Shown piece by piece: positions 601-32,071 of a DNA stretch of 37,712 bases. The stretch's first letter is position 1. Each line of letters begins with the position of its first letter. The stretch comes from Candidatus Omnitrophota bacterium (GTDB taxonomy: Bacteria; Omnitrophota; Gorgyraeia; Gygaellales; Profunditerraquicolaceae). The stretch is from NCBI GenBank assembly GCA_026387265.1, contig JAPLLZ010000042.1:1-37712 (forward strand). The letters run 5' to 3'. A model generated the notes under the pieces. The model did no database searches and was not told the DNA's origin. It saw only the letters and a list, made by a program, of their open reading frames with translations. The translations under genes were made by a program, and so were the position numbers.

Positions 601-610
601 ATTACTAAAT

Positions 611-3600
611 ATGGAAAACGGCAAAGAAAATAATTTTGAAATTACACTTGCTCATCTGCGTAAAGTAGAGTTTCAGCAGAAGGCTATTTTGGATAATATT
701 CCGGATATTGCCTGGCTTAAAGATCTGCAAGGTAAATTTATTGCGGTTAACGAACCATTTGCTAAGGCTTGCGGTTTTAAAATAAATGAAATTATCGGTA
801 AGACGGATTTAGACATTTGGCCGCAAGAGATGGCTTTAAACTACCGTGCTGATGATCAAGAAGTAATTAAAAGCAAGAAACGCAAAATTGTTCAGGAAAA
901 AATTCTATACCAGGATACCGGCGAGCAATGGATTGAAACAATTAAAACTCCTTTTTTTGATGATCATGGGAATGTAATCGGCACAACCGGGATTGCTAGA
1001 AATATTACGCTGCATAAAAGCGAAACAGAGAGGTTAAATGATATTCGCGCAGAACTTGAGCTTCGGGTTAAAGTGAGGACTGCGGAGTTAGCCAGCGCCA
1101 ATGAGATATTGCGTAAAGAAATGCGTGTTAGTCAGGATGCACAAAAAGAATTGGCGCATGTTGGTAATTTTTTGACAAATATTTTTGTTAGTATAATGGA
1201 TGGGGTATCTATTTTGGATACGGATTTGAATATTGTGCGGGTTAATCCTGCTATGGAAAAATGGTTTGATTATAGCGTGCCCCTAGTTGGTAAAAAATGC
1301 TATCAAGCATATCATCATCGAAATAAACCTTGTGAAATTTGTTCAGTAAGAGAAACTTTAAAAACGCATAAGCCAGCACGTACGGTTATTCCTATGGAGG
1401 ATAAGGATGGTAACACGATAGGTTATTTTGATCTTTATAGTTTTCCTATGTTTGAAGAAAAGACAAAAGAACTAATTGGCGTAATCGAGTATGTGCGTAA
1501 TATCACCGAGCAAAAAACTGCTCAGGATGCTTTACGGATGAGCGAGGAAAAATTTAAAAATATTTTTGAGTATTCTAATGTTGGGATGCTGGTTGCTGAT
1601 GTGCGAACCCAGGAGTTTGTTTTAAGTAACCGGGTAATGGAAGAATTACTGATGTATACTAAAGACGAACTGGCGCATATGTCCATAAAAGATATTCATC
1701 CAGAAAGAGATTTGTCTTTAGTTAACGAACAGTTTGATCTGTTAAAAAAAGGTATAGGTTTTATCATCAAAGGATTGCCGGTTAAGAAAAAAGACGGAAG
1801 TATTTTTTTTGCTAATATTACCTCTTCAAAATTAACTTTAAATAACCGAGAGTGTATTTTAGGAAATTTTGAGGACGTTACTTTGCAAAAAGAGAAAGAC
1901 GAACAATTAGTAATTGCCGAGGAACGTTATCGGTTGGTAACCGAACAAACCCGCCAGCTAATTTATGATTTAAATATAGCTACGCAGGAAATAGTTTGGA
2001 GCGGGTTAATTGAGCAAATTACCGGGTTTACTAAAGATGAATTTTCTAAAGTAGATCTTGTCCGTTGGGAAGAAATGATTCATCCTCAAGACCGTAAACC
2101 AGCTATTGATTTATTAAATCAAGCAATTAAATCTGGAGATAATTACGAAGTAGAATATCGTTTTATACGGAAAAACAAGAGCTATATTTATATAAAAGAC
2201 CGGGGGATGTTTCTAAAAGATAAGAATAATAAACCTTATCGTATGTTGGGTTGCATGGAAGATGTGAGTAAAAGCAAGGATTACGAAAATGAGCTTAAAG
2301 TATATCATGAGAAGTTGGAGGTTTTAGTAGAAGAGCGGACAAAATCACTGGAACTAGAAATCGCATCTAGAAAAGAAGCTGAAGAAAAAGCTAACCTTCT
2401 CTATCAGCAGCTGGAGTTTACTCTGGGTGTAACTAAAACCGGATTAGATATTATCGATAAAGATTATAATCTGCGCTATGTTGATCCGGCTTGGGCTAGT
2501 GTCTATGGGGATTGGCACGGTAAAAAATGTTTTGATTATTTTATGGGGCGTAAAAGTCAATGTGCAACCTGTGCAATTGAGGAGGCGTTTAGAACAAAAA
2601 AAACAGTGTTGAGTGAAGAAATTTTAGTTAAAGAAGGCAATCGCCCGATCCAGGTTACTACTATACCATATCAGGATAAAAATGGTGATTGGTTGGTGGC
2701 AGAAGTAAATGCGGACATTACGCAAAAAAAGAAAGTTGATGAAGAACTGAAGCGTTATCGTGATGATTTAGAGCAGTTGGTAGGTGAGCGCACTAAAGAA
2801 CTTTTACAGGAAACAAATCGTTGTAAAACTTCGGAATTGGAAAAAAGTAAGTTAAATCGCGAATTAATTAAAACCAACGAAAAATTAAAAAGTATTTCCC
2901 TGATTGACGCACATACTGGGTTGTATAATTATCGTTATTTGCAGGAAGTTATTGAAGTGGAGTTTCACCAAGCCAGAAGGTATGCCCAGAATTTAGCAGT
3001 AATTATGCTTGATGTAGATTACTTTAAATCAATTAATGATGTTTATGGTATTGCTTTTGGAGATTTGGTGTTAAAACAGCTGTCTAAGCAACTTAAGCGG
3101 ATGATTAGGCGTTACGATATACTTGTTCGCTATAGCGGTGAAGAATTTATTGTTATTTCTCCCCGATTAAACCGCAATATTGCTTTTAATATGGCACAAA
3201 GATTACTGGATTCTTTAAATTTCATTAATTTTGGTAATAAAAAACATAGCGTTAAATTAAACCGGGTTTTTTCTTCAATGGATGTAAAAAGTTTGTTTAG
3301 TAAGAGCGTGGAAAAGGTATCCAGAGTAGTGGGAATAAAGAGTTTGAAAAACACGATTGATAAATTACATAAACAATCAAAACAGGGATTAAGTGAATCA
3401 ATTTTTGCTTTTGCAAAAACTCTGGAATTAAAAGATCATTACACCGGTGAGCATGTGGAAAATACCGTGCATTTTGCTACCGAAGTAGCTAAAGAGCTGA
3501 ATTTACCTAAAGAAGATATAGAATTAATTAAGCAGGCGGCAATGCTGCATGATTTGGGAAAGATCGGTATCAGCGAGAATATTTTGCTTAAAAAAGGCAA

Positions 3601-3943
3601 GCTTAATAAAAAGGAGTTTGAAGAAATTAAGCGGCATCCTCAGATTGGCGCAGATATTATCAGGCCAATTCAGTTTTTACATGACCTGATTCCATTTATT
3701 TTTTACCACCATGAACGCTGGGATGGTAAAGGTTATCCTAGTGGTATAAGAGGTGAAGATATTCCTCTGGGCGCCAGAGTAATTGCGATTGCGGATGTTT
3801 ATCAGGCTTTAATCAGCGATCGCCCTTACCATAAGGCGTTTACTAAGAGCGCAGCCATAGAAATCATTAAAAAATCTTCCGGCACTCAATTTGACCCTCG
3901 TATTGTCAGCGCTTTCCTTAAAGTGGTCGATAAGAAAAGATAA
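611..3943 (+). CDS. Multi-PAS sensor protein with a degenerate/shortened GGDEF domain and a C-terminal HD-GYP phosphodiesterase
   Basis: Repeated PAS/PAC-like segments; DAHTGLYNYRYL..DVDYFKSIND..YSGEEF (GGDEF-like); HDLGKIGIS and HHERWDGKGYPSG (HD-GYP). Confidence 0.9.
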   Translation: MENGKENNFEITLAHLRKVEFQQKAILDNIPDIAWLKDLQGKFIAVNEPFAKACGFKINEIIGKTDLDIWPQEMALNYRADDQEVIKSKKRKIVQEKILYQDTGEQWIETIKTPFFDDHGNVIGTTGIARNITLHKSETERLNDIRAELELRVKVRTAELASANEILRKEMRVSQDAQKELAHVGNFLTNIFVSIMDGVSILDTDLNIVRVNPAMEKWFDYSVPLVGKKCYQAYHHRNKPCEICSVRETLKTHKPARTVIPMEDKDGNTIGYFDLYSFPMFEEKTKELIGVIEYVRNITEQKTAQDALRMSEEKFKNIFEYSNVGMLVADVRTQEFVLSNRVMEELLMYTKDELAHMSIKDIHPERDLSLVNEQFDLLKKGIGFIIKGLPVKKKDGSIFFANITSSKLTLNNRECILGNFEDVTLQKEKDEQLVIAEERYRLVTEQTRQLIYDLNIATQEIVWSGLIEQITGFTKDEFSKVDLVRWEEMIHPQDRKPAIDLLNQAIKSGDNYEVEYRFIRKNKSYIYIKDRGMFLKDKNNKPYRMLGCMEDVSKSKDYENELKVYHEKLEVLVEERTKSLELEIASRKEAEEKANLLYQQLEFTLGVTKTGLDIIDKDYNLRYVDPAWASVYGDWHGKKCFDYFMGRKSQCATCAIEEAFRTKKTVLSEEILVKEGNRPIQVTTIPYQDKNGDWLVAEVNADITQKKKVDEELKRYRDDLEQLVGERTKELLQETNRCKTSELEKSKLNRELIKTNEKLKSISLIDAHTGLYNYRYLQEVIEVEFHQARRYAQNLAVIMLDVDYFKSINDVYGIAFGDLVLKQLSKQLKRMIRRYDILVRYSGEEFIVISPRLNRNIAFNMAQRLLDSLNFINFGNKKHSVKLNRVFSSMDVKSLFSKSVEKVSRVVGIKSLKNTIDKLHKQSKQGLSESIFAFAKTLELKDHYTGEHVENTVHFATEVAKELNLPKEDIELIKQAAMLHDLGKIGISENILLKKGKLNKKEFEEIKRHPQIGADIIRPIQFLHDLIPFIFYHHERWDGKGYPSGIRGEDIPLGARVIAIADVYQALISDRPYHKAFTKSAAIEIIKKSSGTQFDPRIVSAFLKVVDKKR

Positions 3944-7868: not shown

Positions 7869-8480
7869 ATGGATGAGAATAATAATTTAAAATCAGCGAT
7901 TGAAGCATTAATTTTTGCTTCGGAGAAACCAATTACTACAGATCAGTTAAAAAAGGTATTAGGCGATCTGGACGCAGCTACCATTAATAAAATTATTACT
8001 GATTTAAAAAATGAATATGAAGGTCAAGGCAGGGGTATCCGGATTGTAGAGATCGCCGGTGGGTTTCAGATGATTACCAGCAGTAATTTTGCCCAGTTTT
8101 TAAAGAAACTTTTTAAGAATCGTTATAGTGATAAACTTTCTAAGCCCGCGCTTGAATCTTTAGCCATTATTGCCTATAAGCAACCGTTAACTAAGGCGGA
8201 AATTGAATCTTTAAGAAATGTAAATGTGGATGGGGTAATGAAAAGCCTGTTGGATAAAAATTTAATTCGTATTTGCGGTAGAAAGAAAATTCCCGGCAGG
8301 CCTTTTGTTTTCGGTACTACCCGGGAATTCCTGGAGCATTTTGGTTTAAAGTCTCTTCAGGATTTACCTAAAATGGAAGATTTTACGGTTTTGGCCCAAG
8401 AAAAAGAAGGCCAAACTGATATTGAGCCGATTACCCAGGAAGATTTGGAGGTTAAAAATGCGCCTGAACAAGTTGCGTAA
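7869..8480 (+). CDS. scpB: SMC-Scp complex subunit ScpB
   Basis: AIEALIFASEKPIT..GRGIRIVEIAGGFQMIT..LSKPALESLAIIAYKQPLTKAEIE..GRPFVFGTTREFLEHFGL. Confidence 0.94.
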   Translation: MDENNNLKSAIEALIFASEKPITTDQLKKVLGDLDAATINKIITDLKNEYEGQGRGIRIVEIAGGFQMITSSNFAQFLKKLFKNRYSDKLSKPALESLAIIAYKQPLTKAEIESLRNVNVDGVMKSLLDKNLIRICGRKKIPGRPFVFGTTREFLEHFGLKSLQDLPKMEDFTVLAQEKEGQTDIEPITQEDLEVKNAPEQVA

Positions 8481-9519
8481 AAAAATTGATTTACTCGATC
8501 ATAAGCTGATTAATTTGTTGAATCAGCGTGCTGCGGCAACTAAAGATATCGGTAAGATTAAGATTAATGCCGGTAAGAGTATTTATGTGCCGGAAAGAGA
8601 GGCGCAGGTATTAAAAAGAATCTTTAGGTTAAATAAAGGCCCTTTAAAAAAAAGTGCACTGGAAGCAATTTACCGCGAGGTTATGTCTGCCAGTTTAGCT
8701 TTAGAAAAACCTTTAAAAATTGCTTATTTAGGGCCGCAGGCGAGCTTTACTAATCTGGCGGCAATAAAAAAATTCGGTTCCCAGGTAAGTTATATTGCCT
8801 GTAATAATATTACCGATGTATTCCTTGAGGTAGAAAAAGGCAGTGCTGACTACGGGGTTGTGCCTATTGAGAATTCCATTGAGGGGGCAGTTAGTCATAC
8901 TTTGGATGTTTTTGTGGATTCAGATTTAAAAATCTGCTCGCAGGTTATTTTAGAGGTTACCCATAATTTATTGGCGAATTGTGCAAAGAATAGAATACGT
9001 GTAGTTTATTCTATCCCTCAGGTTTTCGGGCAGTGCCGGATTTGGCTGCAGAAAAATTTGCCCAATGCCCAATTAGTAGATGTATCTAGCACTACTCGGG
9101 GCGCGGAAATGGCTAAACAAGAGAAGAATACAGCAGCGATCGCTTCGCTCGTAGCTTCTAAGGTTTATGGACTAAAGGTATTAGCCAGCGGAATTCAAGA
9201 TTCTGCGCATAATATTACACGTTTTCTGGTGGTAGGCAAAAATGTCGCTGCACGCACAGGTAAAGATAAGACCAGCCTGTTTTTTTCGATTAAAGACCGG
9301 GTGGGTGCTTTATATGAAATGCTTTTGCCGTTTCGTAAATACGGGGTTAATCTTACGAAAATTGAATCCCGACCATCGAAAAAGAAAGCCTGGGAATATT
9401 ATTTTTTTGTGGATATCTTAGGGCATCAGGAGGACGCTTTAATTAAAAAAGCATTAAAGGAATTAGAATGCAAATGTAGTTATTTAAAAATATTAGGATC
9501 TTATCCTATTGGAGAATAA
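8458..9519 (+). CDS. pheA: Bifunctional chorismate mutase / prephenate dehydratase
   Basis: N-terminal CM helix (LRKKIDLLDHKLINLLNQRAA), YLGPQASFTNLAA, VPIENSIEGAV, C-terminal ACT domain (ESRPSKKKAWEYYFFVDI); ATG at 8458 overlaps the scpB end. Confidence 0.95.
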   Translation: MRLNKLRKKIDLLDHKLINLLNQRAAATKDIGKIKINAGKSIYVPEREAQVLKRIFRLNKGPLKKSALEAIYREVMSASLALEKPLKIAYLGPQASFTNLAAIKKFGSQVSYIACNNITDVFLEVEKGSADYGVVPIENSIEGAVSHTLDVFVDSDLKICSQVILEVTHNLLANCAKNRIRVVYSIPQVFGQCRIWLQKNLPNAQLVDVSSTTRGAEMAKQEKNTAAIASLVASKVYGLKVLASGIQDSAHNITRFLVVGKNVAARTGKDKTSLFFSIKDRVGALYEMLLPFRKYGVNLTKIESRPSKKKAWEYYFFVDILGHQEDALIKKALKELECKCSYLKILGSYPIGE

Positions 9520-9526
9520 ACAAAGA

Positions 9527-10627
9527 ATGAAATCATTAATTCGAAAAAGTGTTTTGTTGATTAATCCTTACGTTCCCGGTAAGCCGATTGAGGAAACTAA
9601 AAGGCAACTGGGGCTAAAAGAAGTGATTAAGCTGGCGTCTAATGAAAATCCGCTGGGAGTATCTCCTAAGGCGATTAACGCGATTAAAAAAGCATTATCC
9701 GGTATTAATCGGTATCCTGATGCGCAAGGTTTTTATTTAAAAAAGCGTCTGGCTAAGTTTTTTGGGCTGATTCCTGAAAATTTTGTTTTGGGTAACGGTT
9801 CCGATGAATTAATCGATATAATAATTAAGACTTTTGTGGAACCGGATGAAAATATTGTTACTTCGGAAAGTACTTTTCTAGAATATGAGATTGTTGCTCA
9901 AGTTAATGATCGCAAAGTCAAAAAAGCGCCTTTACGCTACTTTAAGTATGATCTAAATGCATTATTGAAATTGGTCGATAAAAAAACAAAATTAATTTTT
10001 ATTGCTAATCCTAATAATCCCACTGGGACTTATGTTAACAGAGAAGAAGTTGCGCAATTTATGAACGCACTTGCGGATGATATAGTGGTGGTTTTTGATG
10101 AGGCTTATAATACCTTTATTGATGTAAACGATTATCCTGATTCATTGAGTTATCTAAAGAGAAAAAGGAATATAATTATCCTCAGGACGTTTTCTAAGGC
10201 TTATGGATTAGCGGGATTACGCTTGGGGTATGCGCTTGCTGCGCCGGAATTAGCTACTTATATGGAGCAAGTTAGGCAGCCATTTAATACTAATCTTCTT
10301 GCTCAAGTCGCCGGGTTAGCTGCTTTGGATGATAAAGTTTTCTTGAAGAAAACCCGCCGCGTAACCTTAGAAGGTAAAAATTTTATTTACCAACAACTAT
10401 CAAGAATGGGGGTGGGCTATGTGCCCTCAATAGCGAATTTTATATTAGTTGATACTGGCACGGATAGTCGGGAAGTATTTAAGTTGATGCTTAAATTTGG
10501 CGTGATTGTCCGGGAGATGAGCCAATATGGATTAAGAAATTTTATACGCGTGACTATTGGCACATTAAAGGAAAACCAAAGGTTCCTGCGTGTTCTTAGT
10601 AAGGTGATAAAGGAGAAGACTCGATGA
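9527..10627 (+). CDS. hisC: HisC-family PLP aminotransferase (probably aromatic/histidinol-phosphate)
   Basis: KLASNENPLGVSPKA..RYPD..ANPNNPTGTY..VVFDEAYNTF..LRTFSKAYGLAGLRLGY; GGAG upstream of ATG 9527. Confidence 0.92.
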   Translation: MKSLIRKSVLLINPYVPGKPIEETKRQLGLKEVIKLASNENPLGVSPKAINAIKKALSGINRYPDAQGFYLKKRLAKFFGLIPENFVLGNGSDELIDIIIKTFVEPDENIVTSESTFLEYEIVAQVNDRKVKKAPLRYFKYDLNALLKLVDKKTKLIFIANPNNPTGTYVNREEVAQFMNALADDIVVVFDEAYNTFIDVNDYPDSLSYLKRKRNIIILRTFSKAYGLAGLRLGYALAAPELATYMEQVRQPFNTNLLAQVAGLAALDDKVFLKKTRRVTLEGKNFIYQQLSRMGVGYVPSIANFILVDTGTDSREVFKLMLKFGVIVREMSQYGLRNFIRVTIGTLKENQRFLRVLSKVIKEKTR

Positions 10628-11643
10628 TCATTGTTCTAAAACCTGGTGCTAGCCAGGAACAAGTCGACCATATTATTGAAAAAGTAAAATTATTGGGGCT
10701 GACTCCTCATGTTTCTAAAGGGTCAGAAAGAACAATTATCGGCGTTATTGGTCCTGAGGATGTGTTGCGTGTTACGCCTTTAGAGGTTTTTCCTGGGGTA
10801 GAAAATGTTATTCCGGTACTTTCTCCGTTTCGGTTAGTTTCCCGTGAATTTAAGAAAGATGATTCAATTATCGATTTAGGCAAAGGGGTAAAGATTGGCG
10901 GCAAAGAAATAGTGGTTATGGCTGGTCCATGCACTATTGAGAATATTGATAGTTTATTTGAGATTGCCAGGGAAGTTAAGAAGGCAGGAGCAACCGTGTT
11001 GCGTGGTGGTGCTTTTAAGCCGCGAACATCCCCGTATAGTTTTCAGGGGTTAGGAAAAGCTGGTTTACAGATGCTCAGAGAAGTGGGCGAGGAATTAGGT
11101 CTAGTTACGGTCAGTGAAGTTATGGATAGCCGTGATGTTGGCTTAGTTGCTGATTATGTGGATGTGTTACAAATCGGCTGCCGTAATATGCAGAATTTTA
11201 ATCTTTTAAAAGAGGTGGGTGCGACAAAAAAACCTGTAGTTTTAAAACGGGGGATGGCTTCAACAGTTAAAGATCTGCTTATGTCTGCTGAATATATTTT
11301 AAGCGGGGGTAATTTTTCAGTCATTCTTTGTGAAAGAGGAATCCGCACTTTTGAAGATTCTACGCGTAATACTTTAGATATTAGCGCAGTTGCGGTAGTC
11401 AAGCAACTTTCACACTTACCCATTATTATTGATCCGTCACATGCTGCTGGAAAATGGAGCTGGGTGCCGGCTTTATCTAAGGCTGCGGTTGCCGCCGGAG
11501 CGGATGGTTTAATCATTGAGGTGCATAATCATCCTGAAGAAGCAGTTTCTGACGGGGCCCAGTCGCTTATCCCGGATAAATTCAATCATTTGGTCAAAGA
11601 GTTAAGAAGTCTGGCTGATTGCGTAGGGAGAAAAATTTCATGA
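10624..11643 (+). CDS. aroF: 3-deoxy-7-phosphoheptulonate synthase (class I-beta, with N-terminal ferredoxin-like domain)
   Basis: MAGPCTIEN..RGGAFKPRTSPYSFQGLG..LQIGCRNMQNFNLLKEVG..PIIIDPSHAAGK. Confidence 0.95.
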   Translation: MIIVLKPGASQEQVDHIIEKVKLLGLTPHVSKGSERTIIGVIGPEDVLRVTPLEVFPGVENVIPVLSPFRLVSREFKKDDSIIDLGKGVKIGGKEIVVMAGPCTIENIDSLFEIAREVKKAGATVLRGGAFKPRTSPYSFQGLGKAGLQMLREVGEELGLVTVSEVMDSRDVGLVADYVDVLQIGCRNMQNFNLLKEVGATKKPVVLKRGMASTVKDLLMSAEYILSGGNFSVILCERGIRTFEDSTRNTLDISAVAVVKQLSHLPIIIDPSHAAGKWSWVPALSKAAVAAGADGLIIEVHNHPEEAVSDGAQSLIPDKFNHLVKELRSLADCVGRKIS

Positions 11644-12470
11644 AAATGTTTAACAAAGTGGTAATAATCGGTACAGGTTTAATCGGAGGGTCTTTAGGTC
11701 TAGCCTTAAAGAAACAGCATTTAGCTGCCCAGGTTATTGGTTTCAGTCGGCAGCAAAAAAATGCCAGGTTAGCCAAGAAAGCCGGAGCGATTGATCAAAT
11801 TGGGTTATCTTTGGATGTGGTGGCAGATGCAGATTTAGTGGTATTAGCTACGCCTATTGATACGATTATTGATTTTGCTTTAAAAATAGAAAAGAAAATT
11901 AAGCAGGGTTGTATTGTTATTGATGTTGGAAGTACCAAAGAGCGGATTGTTTCTAAGGTAGGCGTATTTATTCCGAATTTTTTAGGTTGCCATCCGTTGG
12001 CTGGCTCGGAAAAAAAAGGCATCCTGAATTTACAGGAGAATATTTTTAAAGGTTCAATTTGTATAATTACGCCTACAGCGAAAACTAAAAAAAATGTTCT
12101 AAATAAAGTTAAATTGTTGTGGAAAAAACTAGGTGCACGCGTGATTATTCTTTCAGCAAAAAAACATGACCAGGTTCTTGCGTTTACCAGCCATTTACCT
12201 CATGCTGTTGCGTTTAGCTTGATTAGTTCTGTTCCTGGCCAATATTTGAATTTGGGTTCTACCGGCTTAAAAGATACTACCCGGATTTCCAGCTCGGATG
12301 CTAATCTTTGGAGTGAGATATTCTTAAGCAATCGCAGTAATTTGTTAAATGTTTTATCGGTTTTTAACAGTAAGCTCGCCGCATTAAAACTTGCCCTCGC
12401 CAGTAAAAATAAAGGGCAACTTGTAAAAATTCTTGTGTCCGCTAAGCAAAAGAGAGAAAAATTAAAATGA
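11640..12470 (+). CDS. tyrA: Prephenate dehydrogenase
   Basis: VVIIGTGLIGGSLGLALK..DVGSTKERIV..GCHPLAGSEKKGI..SHLPHAVAFSL. Confidence 0.94.
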   Translation: MKMFNKVVIIGTGLIGGSLGLALKKQHLAAQVIGFSRQQKNARLAKKAGAIDQIGLSLDVVADADLVVLATPIDTIIDFALKIEKKIKQGCIVIDVGSTKERIVSKVGVFIPNFLGCHPLAGSEKKGILNLQENIFKGSICIITPTAKTKKNVLNKVKLLWKKLGARVIILSAKKHDQVLAFTSHLPHAVAFSLISSVPGQYLNLGSTGLKDTTRISSSDANLWSEIFLSNRSNLLNVLSVFNSKLAALKLALASKNKGQLVKILVSAKQKREKLK

Positions 12471-14812
12471 TTATTGCTATTGATGGCCCGGCTGGTGCAG
12501 GGAAAAGCACGGTAGCTAAGATTTTAGCTAAAAGGCTGGGTTTTCTTTATATTGATACCGGAGCAATGTACCGGGCTTTGACGCTAAAGGCCCTGGAAAG
12601 CAATATTCCGGTAAATAATGAGGGAGAAATAATCCGTTTGGCTGATAAGGTTAAAATAGATTTAATTAATAATCCCGACGGTCCACTGACAGTTATGTTA
12701 GATGGAAAGGATGTTTCTTTGGCGATTCGGCAGCCTAGAATTACGCAATTTGTTTCAGATATAGCTAAAATTAAAGAGGTGCGTCAAGTATTAGTGAAAA
12801 TGCAAAGAGAGTTTGGCCAAAAAGGAGATTGCGTTTTAGATGGCCGGGATATTGGCACCGTGGTTTTTCCTAATGCCCAGAAAAAGTTTTTTATTGATGC
12901 TTCTGCAGATGAACGGGTAAAACGCCGTTTTAAGGAATTAAAAGGTTTAGGCCAGAATGTTGCCGAAAATGAAGTAGCTAAGGATTTAGCTAACCGGGAT
13001 AAGATTGATTCAACCCGTCAAGCCTCACCTTTACGTCAGGCAGCTGATGCAATTTATATTGATACCACAGATCTTTCTATAGAACAAGTAGTTGAGAAAA
13101 TGTTTAACTTGGTTAAACGGCATAAAGGTGATCAACTTTTAGATGATATGGAGTTAGAAAAAGAGCGGGGCATTACCATTAAGGCATCTATGGTCAGATT
13201 AAATTATTTTTCTAAGAAATTTAACCAAGAATACATTTTAAACCTTATTGATACCCCGGGACATGTAGATTTTACTTATGAAGTATCTAAATCTTTAGCT
13301 GCGTGTGAAGGTGCGGTATTAGTGATCGATGCCGGTCAGGGTATTGAGGCGCAAACTGTAGCGAATTATTATTTGGCTATAGATAACAATCTTCATGTTA
13401 TTCCGGTAATTAATAAGGTAGATTTAGTTTCTGCTGATGTGCCTAGGGTAAAAACGCAGGTAGAGACTGTTCTGGGTTTTAAAGAAGAAGAAATTATTCT
13501 AGCTTCAGCTAAAGAAGGGAATGGGGTTATTGAGATTTTGGATAGGATTATCGAAACCATCCCCAGCCCTGGCGGACAGGAAGATGGAGCACTTAAGGCT
13601 TTAATTTTTGATTGCCGTTTCGATGCTTTTAAAGGCGTAGTTGTTTTTGTGAAAGTTATTGACGGGGTAATCACCCCTAAGACGCAGTTAAAAATGTTTC
13701 ATACGGGAAAAGTCTATAAAATTGAAGAATTGGGTGTGTTTAAGGATTTGAAATATTCTGCTGTGGATAATTTAACTTGTGGAGAGGTCGGGTACTTTAC
13801 TGCGAATATGCGTGATCCCCGGGAGGTAGTTATCGGAGATACGATTACTGATCCGAAGAATCCATGCGCTCAGGCTTTGCCTGGTTATCGTAAGGTAAAG
13901 CCTTTGGTGTTTTGTGGTATCTATCCGGTTAATCCTGCGGATTTTCCGGAATTACGCGATGCCATGGATAAACTAAAACTTTCCGATGCTTCTTTTGTTT
14001 TTGAGCCTGAAAATTCACAATCTTTCGGGGCAGGATTCCGTTGCGGGTTTTTGGGCCTTTTGCATATGGAGATTGTTCAGGAAAGGCTTGAACGCGAATA
14101 TGACTTAAATCTCATCCTCACTGTTCCTAATGTAGTCTATCGCGTAAAAACAAAGTCGGGTGAACTTATTGAAATAGATACACCAATGAAACTTAGCGCA
14201 AATGGCGATATTCAAGAGGCACAGGAACCGTTTGCCAGCTTATTGATGATTGTACCGGTTGATTCGATTGAGGCGGTTTGTGATTTCACTAAATCCCGCA
14301 GGGGTGTATTTGTTTCTAATGAATATTTAGGGGAAGATCGTGTAAAAGTAATTTTCTCTATACCTCTATCTGAAATTATTGTTGATTTTTATGATCGCAT
14401 GAAATCAATTACGCGGGGTTATGGTTCTATGGATTATGAGGTTAAAGAATATTTGCCGACAAGGCTGGTTAAACTTGATATATTATTAAATAGCCAGATT
14501 TGCGATGCTTTTTCCTCGTTAATGTTTAAAGATAAGGCTACCTCGCGGGCGCATTTATTGGTTTCTAAACTTAAGGAGTTGATTCCGCGGCAGCTTTTTG
14601 AAGTAACGATTCAGGCAGCAGTGGGCAGTCAGATTTTGGCTTCAGAAAGAGTGCGTTCTGTAGGTAAAAATGCCACAAGCAAATGTTCCGGCGGAGATAT
14701 CACCCGTAAGCGTAAGCTTTGGGAAACTCAGAAAAAAGGCAAGAAAAGGCTGAAGCAGTTTGGAAAAGTGGAAATACCACAAGAAGCTTTTCTGGAGATA
14801 TTAAAAATATGA
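12467..14812 (+). CDS. cmk-lepA: Chimeric ORF: complete cytidylate kinase (about aa 1-218) joined in frame to LepA/EF4 lacking its N-terminus
   Basis: MIIAIDGPAGAGKSTVAK..DTGAMYRALT..DGRDIGTVVFPNA (Cmk), then GDQLLDDMELEKERGITIKA..DTPGHVDF..NKVDL..CSGGDITRKRKLWETQKKGKKRLKQFGKVEIPQEAF (LepA). Confidence 0.93.
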   Translation: MIIAIDGPAGAGKSTVAKILAKRLGFLYIDTGAMYRALTLKALESNIPVNNEGEIIRLADKVKIDLINNPDGPLTVMLDGKDVSLAIRQPRITQFVSDIAKIKEVRQVLVKMQREFGQKGDCVLDGRDIGTVVFPNAQKKFFIDASADERVKRRFKELKGLGQNVAENEVAKDLANRDKIDSTRQASPLRQAADAIYIDTTDLSIEQVVEKMFNLVKRHKGDQLLDDMELEKERGITIKASMVRLNYFSKKFNQEYILNLIDTPGHVDFTYEVSKSLAACEGAVLVIDAGQGIEAQTVANYYLAIDNNLHVIPVINKVDLVSADVPRVKTQVETVLGFKEEEIILASAKEGNGVIEILDRIIETIPSPGGQEDGALKALIFDCRFDAFKGVVVFVKVIDGVITPKTQLKMFHTGKVYKIEELGVFKDLKYSAVDNLTCGEVGYFTANMRDPREVVIGDTITDPKNPCAQALPGYRKVKPLVFCGIYPVNPADFPELRDAMDKLKLSDASFVFEPENSQSFGAGFRCGFLGLLHMEIVQERLEREYDLNLILTVPNVVYRVKTKSGELIEIDTPMKLSANGDIQEAQEPFASLLMIVPVDSIEAVCDFTKSRRGVFVSNEYLGEDRVKVIFSIPLSEIIVDFYDRMKSITRGYGSMDYEVKEYLPTRLVKLDILLNSQICDAFSSLMFKDKATSRAHLLVSKLKELIPRQLFEVTIQAAVGSQILASERVRSVGKNATSKCSGGDITRKRKLWETQKKGKKRLKQFGKVEIPQEAFLEILKI

Positions 14813-15384
14813 GTTTAAAAAAGAAATCTGTAATTAGGGATTGGGTTGAATCAATTATTATTGCTTTTCTTTTGGCTTTAGTTATCCGGGCTTTTTTGGT
14901 CCAGGCCTTTAAGATTCCTACCGGGTCAATGCGCATGACCTTAATTGAGGGGGATTTGATTTTAGTAAACAAGTTCATTTATGGAGCAAAAATTCCGTTC
15001 ACTAATATGCGGTTACCGGCATTGCGCCAGCCTAAAAGAGGGGATGTAATTGTTTTTATTTATCCGGAAGATAAAAGTAAGGATTTTATAAAGAGATTGG
15101 TCGGGCTTCCCGGAGATGTGGTGGAAATTAAGGGTGGTTCGGTATATATTAATGATCAGCCGGCTGCAGAACCGATCTTTAATCAGATTTATTACTATAA
15201 CCGCGGCCAATTAAGTGCGCCGGGTGAAAAATTAGTTGTACCTGCGGATAGTTATTTTGTATTAGGAGATAATTCTGCTACTTCTAAGGATAGCCGCTAC
15301 TGGGGGTTTGTCCCAAAGAATAATTTACTTGGGCAGGCGATGATTATTTATTGGCCTGTGCAGCGAATGAGGGTGATTAAATGA
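14809..15384 (+). CDS. lepB: Signal peptidase I
   Basis: RAFLVQAFKIPTGSMRMTLIEGDLILVNKF..PKRGDVIVFIYPEDKSKDFIKRLVGLPGD..VLGDNSATSKDSRYWGFV; start overlaps the lepA stop. Confidence 0.95.
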   Translation: MSLKKKSVIRDWVESIIIAFLLALVIRAFLVQAFKIPTGSMRMTLIEGDLILVNKFIYGAKIPFTNMRLPALRQPKRGDVIVFIYPEDKSKDFIKRLVGLPGDVVEIKGGSVYINDQPAAEPIFNQIYYYNRGQLSAPGEKLVVPADSYFVLGDNSATSKDSRYWGFVPKNNLLGQAMIIYWPVQRMRVIK

Positions 15385-15461
15385 ATCCCGCACCTTCTAA
15401 ATATTCAATTCTTGAAGTCAGACGGTTTAATAAATTAATTAAGGAAGAAGGTGCGGGATGA
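15381..15461 (+). CDS. Putative 26-aa small ORF/leader peptide bridging lepB and pgsA
   Basis: ATG overlaps the lepB stop and TGA overlaps the pgsA ATG; translation MNPAPSKYSILEVRRFNKLIKEEGAG. Confidence 0.45.
   Translation: MNPAPSKYSILEVRRFNKLIKEEGAG
15385..15459 (+). promoter_or_regulatory. 14-bp inverted repeat enclosing the sORF and the pgsA RBS
   Basis: ATCCCGCACCTTCT (15385-15398) is a perfect reverse complement of AGAAGGTGCGGGAT (15446-15459). Confidence 0.6.
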
Positions 15462-16021
15462 ATATAGCAAATAAAATTTCTACATTTCGCATATTAAGCG
15501 TTCCATTTTTTATTGCTTGCCTGTTGTATTATGCCCCGGAAAGAGCTTTTTTGGTAAAATTAGCTTTAGTCATATTTATTCTAGGGGTTATTTCTGATGG
15601 TTTAGATGGTTATATCGCCAGAAAAGCTAAAATGCAATCCAAAGCTGGATTAATTTTAGATCCGTTAGGAGACAAGCTTTTATTAATTAGCGCCTTTGTA
15701 TTTTTGTCACCGATTTGTCACTTAAATCTTAAGTTTCCACTCTGGGTAAGTTTTATTGTGATTTCCCGGGATTTGATTATTATAATCGGAGCAGTAGTTA
15801 TTTATATGGTTAAACAGAATTTAGAGGTTTATCCTACCAAGTGGGGTAAATTAACTACAATTTTTCAAATGCTTTCTGTGATTTGTGTTTTGTTGCAATG
15901 GAAATTAGCAGTGTTGATTTGGTGGCCGGCGGTAATTTTTACGATTATTTCCGGCTTTGATTACGTAAAGAGAGGTTTTAAAATTTTATATGCTGCTGAC
16001 AATCGTCGCGTTACTAGTTAG
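15458..16021 (+). CDS. pgsA: CDP-alcohol phosphatidyltransferase (PgsA-like)
   Basis: CDP-OH-P motif SDGLDGYIARKAKMQSKAGLILDPLGDKL. Confidence 0.9.
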   Translation: MNIANKISTFRILSVPFFIACLLYYAPERAFLVKLALVIFILGVISDGLDGYIARKAKMQSKAGLILDPLGDKLLLISAFVFLSPICHLNLKFPLWVSFIVISRDLIIIIGAVVIYMVKQNLEVYPTKWGKLTTIFQMLSVICVLLQWKLAVLIWWPAVIFTIISGFDYVKRGFKILYAADNRRVTS

Positions 16022-16631
16022 TTATTTTATAGGTTCTATACCTACTGCTTATATCTTTGGCCGGGTGCTTAAAGGAATCGATATTCGCAAGGTCGGTTCA
16101 GGCAATGTGGGCGCTACTAATGCGTTGCGTGTTTTAGGCAAAGTCCCGGGAGTCATCGTTTTAATTTTAGATATACTAAAAGGATTCTTGGTGGTTTTTT
16201 TTCTGGGGAACTACTTTGTGGATAAGCCTGTTTTGTTGCAGACGCAAAATATGCGGATAGCGATGGGTTTGTTCTGTATTTGCGGGCATAACTGGACGGT
16301 ATTTTTACAGTTTAAGGGAGGGAAAGGAATTGCCACCACTTTTGGTGTTTTACTTGGCCTTTCTTTAAAAGTTCCCGGCCTAAATTCAGTAATCGGTTTA
16401 TTAATTCTGGTGTGGTTTATTGTTTTTTGTATTTTTAGGATAGTTTCTCTAGCCTCAATCTGTAGCGCTGTTTTTTTTCCGGTTTTCTCTGTGTTGTTTA
16501 GGCTTCCGCTAACATTTATTAGTTTAAGTTTACTGCTTTTTATTTTTGTGATTATCCGGCATAAAGAAAATTTGCGCAGGATTATTCAAGGTAAAGAACC
16601 CCGCCTCTATTTTAAGAAAACAACAAATTAA
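15990..16631 (+). CDS. plsY: Acyl-phosphate glycerol-3-phosphate acyltransferase PlsY
   Basis: YFIGSIPTAYIFGR..VGSGNVGATNALRVLG..CGHNWTVFLQFKGGKGIATTFGV. Confidence 0.95.
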   Translation: MLLTIVALLVSYFIGSIPTAYIFGRVLKGIDIRKVGSGNVGATNALRVLGKVPGVIVLILDILKGFLVVFFLGNYFVDKPVLLQTQNMRIAMGLFCICGHNWTVFLQFKGGKGIATTFGVLLGLSLKVPGLNSVIGLLILVWFIVFCIFRIVSLASICSAVFFPVFSVLFRLPLTFISLSLLLFIFVIIRHKENLRRIIQGKEPRLYFKKTTN

Positions 16632-30253: not shown

Positions 30254-30277
30254 TAGGATATATCCATCAATAATATT

Positions 30278-32071
30278 ATGGAAAAATATAAAGTTAAGTT
30301 TATTCCGGATAATTTGACCGTTAGCGTTGAGAAAGATAAAACTATTCTCGCCGCAGCTATATCTGCTGGAATTTATATTAATTCTAATTGCGGAGGAGAT
30401 GGCATCTGTGGACGATGTAAGGTAATGGTCCAGCACGGGCAAGTGAATAGCCAACCTAATGGTATAATCACTGCGCAAGAAAGAAAAGAAAATATATATT
30501 TAGCCTGTCTTACTACTGTTCATAGTGATTTGGATGTTTTAATTCCGGATAGTTCGCGGATTAATTTTGATAAACTTACTCCGGAAGAACTAGAGGAGCG
30601 GCTGAGCGGGCTTTATTCAAAAGCAGAAGATGTTTTAACGGTAAAACCAAAATTTGATGATAAAGTTTTTAAACATTCTCCTTTTGCTACAAAAATATAC
30701 CTGGAGCTTCCTGCGCCTACACTTAATGATAGCATTAGTGATTTAGAAAGGCTGTACCGGGCTTTACGTAAATTTGGCGAGTTCCCGGTGATTGAGACAG
30801 GGTTATTTAATATACGTCAGCTGGGTGAATTATTGCGTGATTATGACTGGAAAGTAACGGTTACTTTGGGTAGACGTGATGAAATAGTGGAGATTGTTTT
30901 AATTGAGCCTGGTGATACCACTGGTAGAAATTTCGGGCTTTGTTTTGATATCGGGACTACGACTATTTCTGGTCAGCTGGTAAACTTAAATTCAAAAAAA
31001 ATATTGGGAACTAAAGCTGCCTATAATCAGCAGGCTGCTTTTGGCAGCGATGTAATTACGCGTATAGTTTATGCCGCTAAGTCCGATGGGCTAGAAAAAT
31101 TACATAACGCCGTTTCTGATACGATGAACCAGATTATTAAAGATTTAGTTAGTGCACATAAAGTTGACCTAAATAATGTTAATTGTATTGTTTGCTCTGG
31201 CAATACGACTATGGTGCATTTGTTTTTAAATATGGATCCTTCGCATATCCGGCGCCAACCTTATGTTCCCACGGCAAATTTTATTCCGGTCCTGCGTGCC
31301 GCCGAAGCTGGGATAAATATCAATCCGCGGGGTTTGCTAAATTGCGTGCCCGGAGTTTCCAGCTATGTGGGGGGAGATACAACTGCGGGAATTTTATCTA
31401 GCGGGATATATCAAAAAGAGGATCCCTGTATATTAATTGATATTGGCACAAATGGAGAGATTGTTTTAGGCAACCGTGATTTTTTAGTGGCTTGCGCAGC
31501 ATCTGCCGGCCCGGCTTTTGAAGGCATTGATTTACTTAGTGAAATGCTTAAGGCTGGAATAATTGACCGGGCGGGCAAAATTAAAGCTCAGGGTAAGCGT
31601 ATCCGCTCAACCGATAACGGAAAAGAATTTGTTATTTGTTTTAAAGAAGAGATTCAGGCGCAGGCAGATATTGTGATTAACGAGGCAGATATTGAAAATC
31701 TTAAACGTTCTAAAGGTGCGATATATTCTGCCTGTTCTATTTTAGTTAAACATTTGAATTTGGAGTTTACTGATATTCATAAAATATTTATTGCCGGCGG
31801 GTTTGGTACATATTTGGATATCGAAAAGGCTATTGGTATTGGATTGCTGCCGGATTTACCGCGCTCTAAATTTATTTTTATCGGAAATAGTTCTTTGGCA
31901 GGGGCAAGAGAAGTACTTTTGTCTAGTCAGGCTAAGTCTATGGCTGATGCGCTAGCTTTAAAAATTACTTATTTTGAATTATCAGTTAACCCGGGGTACA
32001 TGGAGGAATACAGTCAGGCTTTATTTTTCCCACATACCGACCTGACTAAATTTCCTACGGTAAGATTTTAA
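30278..32071 (+). CDS. acsV: Reductive activator of CFeSP (RACo-like): 2Fe-2S ferredoxin plus ASKHA/DUF4445 protein
   Basis: CGGDGICGRCKVMVQHG..LACLT (2Fe-2S); FGLCFDIGTTTISGQLVNL; CVPGVSSYVGGDTTAGIL; IDIGTNGEIVLGNRDFLVACAASAGPAFEG. Confidence 0.9.
   Translation: MEKYKVKFIPDNLTVSVEKDKTILAAAISAGIYINSNCGGDGICGRCKVMVQHGQVNSQPNGIITAQERKENIYLACLTTVHSDLDVLIPDSSRINFDKLTPEELEERLSGLYSKAEDVLTVKPKFDDKVFKHSPFATKIYLELPAPTLNDSISDLERLYRALRKFGEFPVIETGLFNIRQLGELLRDYDWKVTVTLGRRDEIVEIVLIEPGDTTGRNFGLCFDIGTTTISGQLVNLNSKKILGTKAAYNQQAAFGSDVITRIVYAAKSDGLEKLHNAVSDTMNQIIKDLVSAHKVDLNNVNCIVCSGNTTMVHLFLNMDPSHIRRQPYVPTANFIPVLRAAEAGININPRGLLNCVPGVSSYVGGDTTAGILSSGIYQKEDPCILIDIGTNGEIVLGNRDFLVACAASAGPAFEGIDLLSEMLKAGIIDRAGKIKAQGKRIRSTDNGKEFVICFKEEIQAQADIVINEADIENLKRSKGAIYSACSILVKHLNLEFTDIHKIFIAGGFGTYLDIEKAIGIGLLPDLPRSKFIFIGNSSLAGAREVLLSSQAKSMADALALKITYFELSVNPGYMEEYSQALFFPHTDLTKFPTVRF

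Follow-up and report, generated by a model that had tools for sequence, protein, structure and literature searches.

A probable deletion joins cmk in frame to a truncated lepA in a single Omnitrophota assembly

In the window, the whole stretch of 37,712 nucleotides (37.7 kb at the beginning of a contig of 54,785 bp) analysed here from a Candidatus Omnitrophota bacterium, an open reading frame at positions 12467-14812 of the forward strand joins the cytidylate kinase gene (cmk) to a lepA/EF4 gene devoid of its 5' end. This join, found in one assembly of metagenome type, is most probably (probability of about 0.9) the product of a single deletion of approximately 109 bp at an ordinary cmk-lepA border rather than a bifunctional protein that evolved as such. 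One deletion would account for the loss of the three terminal codons of cmk together with its stop codon, and of the lepA start, which overlaps that stop, along with 35 codons at the 5' end of lepA. Both frames would have stayed in register by chance (one in three), and the event would be very recent in the population or would have arisen in library preparation or assembly. Cmk-LepA as an evolved architecture or fusion family is not supported; what is described is a deletion join in a single assembly, for which no novelty is claimed.

Content of the joined reading frame

The frame is open from an ATG at 12467 to a TGA at 14810-14812 and encodes 781 residues without an internal stop. Its first part, cmk (residues 1-217; 12467-13117, +), was delimited by the Pfam Cytidylate_kin match, the lengths of congener proteins and alignment with locus L006. 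The Pfam profile (PF02224) matches residues 3-217 over its positions 1-210 of 211 with 253 bits, and the Walker A motif GPAGAGKST is present. Congener Cmk proteins have 218-224 residues, and the joined ORF lacks only about three variable C-terminal residues of the congener protein, so that the complete Cmk described in a sequence-only reading of this DNA is essentially there.

The second part (13118-14809, +), delimited by TIGR01393, Pfam and alignment, is a lepA/EF4 remnant whose first residue is R36 (window residue 218) and which keeps the native C-terminus. It scores 811 bits with the NCBIfam lepA model TIGR01393, whose cut-off is 533.9 bits, in a match that begins at profile position 22, while the GTP_EFTU match covers ORF residues 217-367 and does not begin before position 35 of 188. 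EFG_C (PF00679) and LepA_C (PF06421, profile positions 1-107 of 107) are complete, and PF14492 is also matched, so that the C-terminal domain specific to LepA is present along with the EF-G-like domains III and V. The open frame and these matches to both of its parts bear out the in-frame joining of Cmk to LepA/EF4 noticed in the sequence-only reading, and the late entry into GTP_EFTU and TIGR01393 confirms the absence of the LepA G1 P-loop that it reported. Missing along with the P-loop (HIDHGKST) are strand β1 and helix α1. The remnant retains the switch I region and the G3, G4 and G5 motifs (DTPGH, NKVD and SAKEG). The catalytic residue H81 of E. coli is represented by the histidine of DTPGH; this motif and NKxD read DTPGHVDF and NKVDL here, and domains II-V and the C-terminal domain are intact. 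Over 563 residues, the LepA part shares 96% identity with the complete LepA protein of the nearest congener, which rules out a chance ORF. The closest solved structure, PDB 2ywe, was aligned from its residue 25, the start of the alignment running over the Cmk tail.

Like EF4/LepA (TIGR01393; PDB 2ywe, 3cb4), window residues 218-781 match domains II-V and the LepA C-terminal domain; unlike it, the remnant lacks the first 35 residues, a start codon of its own and a ribosome-binding site. Similarly, the ORF covers the whole Cmk family profile (TIGR00017, PF02224), Walker A included, but differs from Cmk by a 564-residue C-terminal extension and the loss of about three terminal residues. Cmk shares one ORF with another domain in Cmk-Der (NF007071), PanC-Cmk (NF010004) and AroA-Cmk (NF008816) as well. 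These, however, are curated families in which both partners are whole, whereas in the window the partner has lost part of its sequence and the join was seen in one assembly; the window ORF scores far below the cut-offs of all three models.

The junction and the cmk-lepA border in relatives

Pairwise alignments with loci L006, L007, L010 and L012, together with the spacing in the nearest congener, G022, place the deletion junction at 13117/13118 (+), where K217 of Cmk is followed by R36 of LepA. The sequence-only reading had put the join inside GDQLL (about 13121-13130) and the loss at approximately 45 LepA residues; the alignments shift the former to 13117/13118 and reduce the latter to 35. 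Relative to G022, 109 bp are absent from the window and the flanks match closely, the distance from Cmk codon 215 to the HKGD codon being 118 nt in G022 and 9 nt in the window. The missing segment corresponds to three cmk codons, the cmk stop, which overlaps the lepA start by 8 bp, and 35 lepA codons. The window matches G022 cmk through GGTTAAA and picks up again in lepA at CGGCATAAAGG.

The breakpoints bear on whether the deletion took place in the organism. A real and recent loss-of-function deletion in the sampled population, which would leave Cmk active and attach to it an EF4 tail without function, may have occurred, perhaps by short-homology slippage at TAAA. If the ancestor had AAACGG, as is found in G006, TAAA would be common to both breakpoints, whose position would then be ambiguous by up to 4 bp; homology of that length is expected in approximately 2% of random joins of such size. 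On the other hand, the nearest relative, G022, has AAGCGG, and an ancestor of that form would leave no microhomology. The competing possibility is an artefact only, in an organism that has the normal overlapping cmk and lepA, the contig joining two ends wrongly, either because a gap in the scaffold was closed by deletion or because a chimeric read was used where coverage was low. The genome is indeed a draft of 73 contigs, estimated to be 87.5% complete, and every relative is intact, but no repeat flanks the join for a k-mer assembler to collapse, and the window contains no N run and is clean in its remainder. Repeat-mediated assembly collapse is not favoured, as no long repeat or other shared sequence was found to flank the join; the junction 30-mer is unique. 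A perfect 10-nt inverted repeat (13108-13117 and 13220-13229), with the end of one arm right at the junction, is within chance.

Separate cmk and full-length lepA genes were found in all of the more than 60 Omnitrophota loci with a readable junction, congeners included, and HIDHGKST is present in every lepA examined in the phylum that reaches its start. Across 285 genomes of the phylum, no other Cmk-LepA span occurred among the matches listed, which stop short of the weakest ones; a stable fusion family would need independent genomes, two at the least, to share the join, which was seen in one. A search table had flagged open frames of 816-926 aa in several genomes, resembling fusions. Sixteen of the flagged loci above 800 aa were fetched; cmk and lepA lie in one frame there, but a stop separates them in all those in which cmk was recognised (15 of 15), so that a fusion in relatives was rejected at these loci. 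A literature search for a Cmk-LepA fusion found none and returned unrelated papers only. Of the two explanations offered by the sequence-only reading, a loss of EF4 GTP binding and a deletion or assembly join that took away the cmk 3' flank and the lepA 5' end, the second has held, the relatives all having separate genes and this contig being the sole join; its suggestion of a non-standard fused architecture is not supported. The comparison of cmk-lepA spacing that it had proposed, which gave separate cmk and full-length lepA throughout, speaks against a fusion. The second intact lepA that it had suggested looking for was not found in the 73-contig, 87.5% complete assembly, nor was the missing 5' piece; other P-loop matches in the assembly are on contig C7 only, in EF-G/EF-Tu-type genes. 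An in-frame join in a single draft genome can mimic a new architecture and enter databases as a fusion.

In the closest species, the end of cmk and the start of lepA share 8 bp, read in different frames (ATGGATAG); other species of the genus have lepA immediately behind the cmk stop, without a change of frame (TAA ATG). An ancestral fusion by programmed readthrough was rejected for the nearest relatives, given the 8-bp overlap and the different frames. Within the genus, the border alternates between the overlap and the same-frame abutment (TAAATG), as read at L011, L017, L018, L022 and L035-L042, and also at L006, L007 and L010; at TAAATG borders, a single stop mutation would yield a full-length Cmk-LepA fusion.

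Age of the join and its consequences for EF4

Compared with G022, the LepA remnant has a dN of 0.019, a dS of approximately 1.0 and a dN/dS of 0.019, and lepA is under strong purifying selection in the genus (dN/dS about 0.02-0.09). The branch of the remnant is ordinary, with 0.033 changes per site, and adjoins G022 with moderate support. Changes private to the window amount to 35 synonymous and 6 nonsynonymous ones (over 374 and 1315 sites, respectively), the latter being mostly conservative (V/I, E/D, K/N), and none affects the 226 otherwise invariant LepA residues. Had the branch been wholly neutral, about 123 nonsynonymous changes would be expected, against the 6 observed. If all 6 are assigned to neutrality, the neutral fraction of the private branch is at most about 10%, a conservative bound because synonymous changes are undercounted at such divergence. 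The absence of decay rules out an old pseudogene, and it indicates that constraint acted on the intact gene before the join; as the constraint predates the join, the latter either happened very recently or is absent from the organism. Judged from the substitutions, the deletion would be very recent, taking up less than about 10% of the private branch of the lineage, or it would be a variant of a strain or an artefact of assembly or library.

Purifying selection on lepA in the genus, with a window copy that has not decayed, speaks for an artefact. A real deletion would have to be very young to leave no relaxed selection in the remnant, and no relative has lost lepA in the same way; in its favor, EF4 is dispensable in E. 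coli (PMC4245954). A real recent deletion and a library or assembly artefact thus appear about equally probable, each somewhat short of an even chance.

The G-domain of the chimera, whose modelling the sequence-only reading had advised, was examined in a structure model built with 35 aligned sequences (A4); a mixed Cmk and LepA alignment (A2) was left out, its Cmk rows being misaligned. In the model (mean pLDDT 80.7, pTM 0.59), Cmk and the LepA domains are folded, the link between them, residues 218-238, is of low confidence (pLDDT <50), and no strand or helix takes the place of β1, the P-loop and α1. The kinase P-loop, which lies in a separate folded domain, would be unable to substitute for G1. 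If the deletion is real, Cmk should work while carrying a large, inert extension at its C-terminus, and a null EF4 is expected because GTP would be unable to bind without the P-loop; ribosome-dependent GTPase activity of the remnant is expected to be absent. In E. coli, deletion of lepA causes no obvious growth defect (PMC4245954), and LepA has been described as widespread and non-essential (PMC4342817). A viable EF4-null organism with normal Cmk would then be the expected outcome, and it would represent one natural lepA null in a lineage that otherwise strongly conserves EF4, a minor datum on EF4 dispensability.

One point runs against a view based on deletion only, as an in-frame, stop-free join, to which chance gives one in three, would also be expected of a selected fusion. 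A functional Cmk-EF4 chimera might use the GTP-free remnant, for example, as a ribosome-binding tail tying CMP kinase to ribosomes. The open frame, the constrained LepA sequence and the intact ribosome-binding domains II-V and C-terminal domain would fit such a role, and Cmk accepts fusion partners in known proteins, as in the Cmk-Der, PanC-Cmk and AroA-Cmk NCBIfam models. However, the constraint is older than the join and equal to that in intact relatives, the join is unique to one assembly, and EF4 needs its GTPase activity in vivo in E. coli, where the H81A variant fails to complement (PMC4245954). A functional chimera is therefore very improbable, and a real one fixed in the species, with GTP-independent EF4 domains tethering CMP kinase to ribosomes, is more improbable still.

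Neighbouring genes

Upstream of the joined ORF, a prephenate-dehydrogenase-like gene (named by inspection; 11619-12470, +) overlaps the cmk start by 4 bp and is colinear in congeners. Downstream, the stop codon (14810-14812, +) overlaps the start of a signal peptidase I-like gene, lepB (named by inspection; 14809-15384, +), in the sequence ATGA at 14809-14812; lepB is full length and colinear in congeners. Nearly all other window genes are likewise full length and colinear with those of congeners, in a comparison that covers the window stretches for which the sequence of a relative was fetched, the exceptions being a variable ORF at 602-3940 and one internally variable gene near 30257-32068. 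The genes at 8422-16631 (+), named by inspection as aromatic amino acid, cmk, lepA, lepB-like and phospholipid genes, are tightly packed and mostly overlapping, in an order conserved across the genus. The ORF at 602-3940 (+) is an open frame of 1113 residues that varies strongly among congeners, both in length and in its internal segments, and it appears repeat-like, matching in two or more internal registers.
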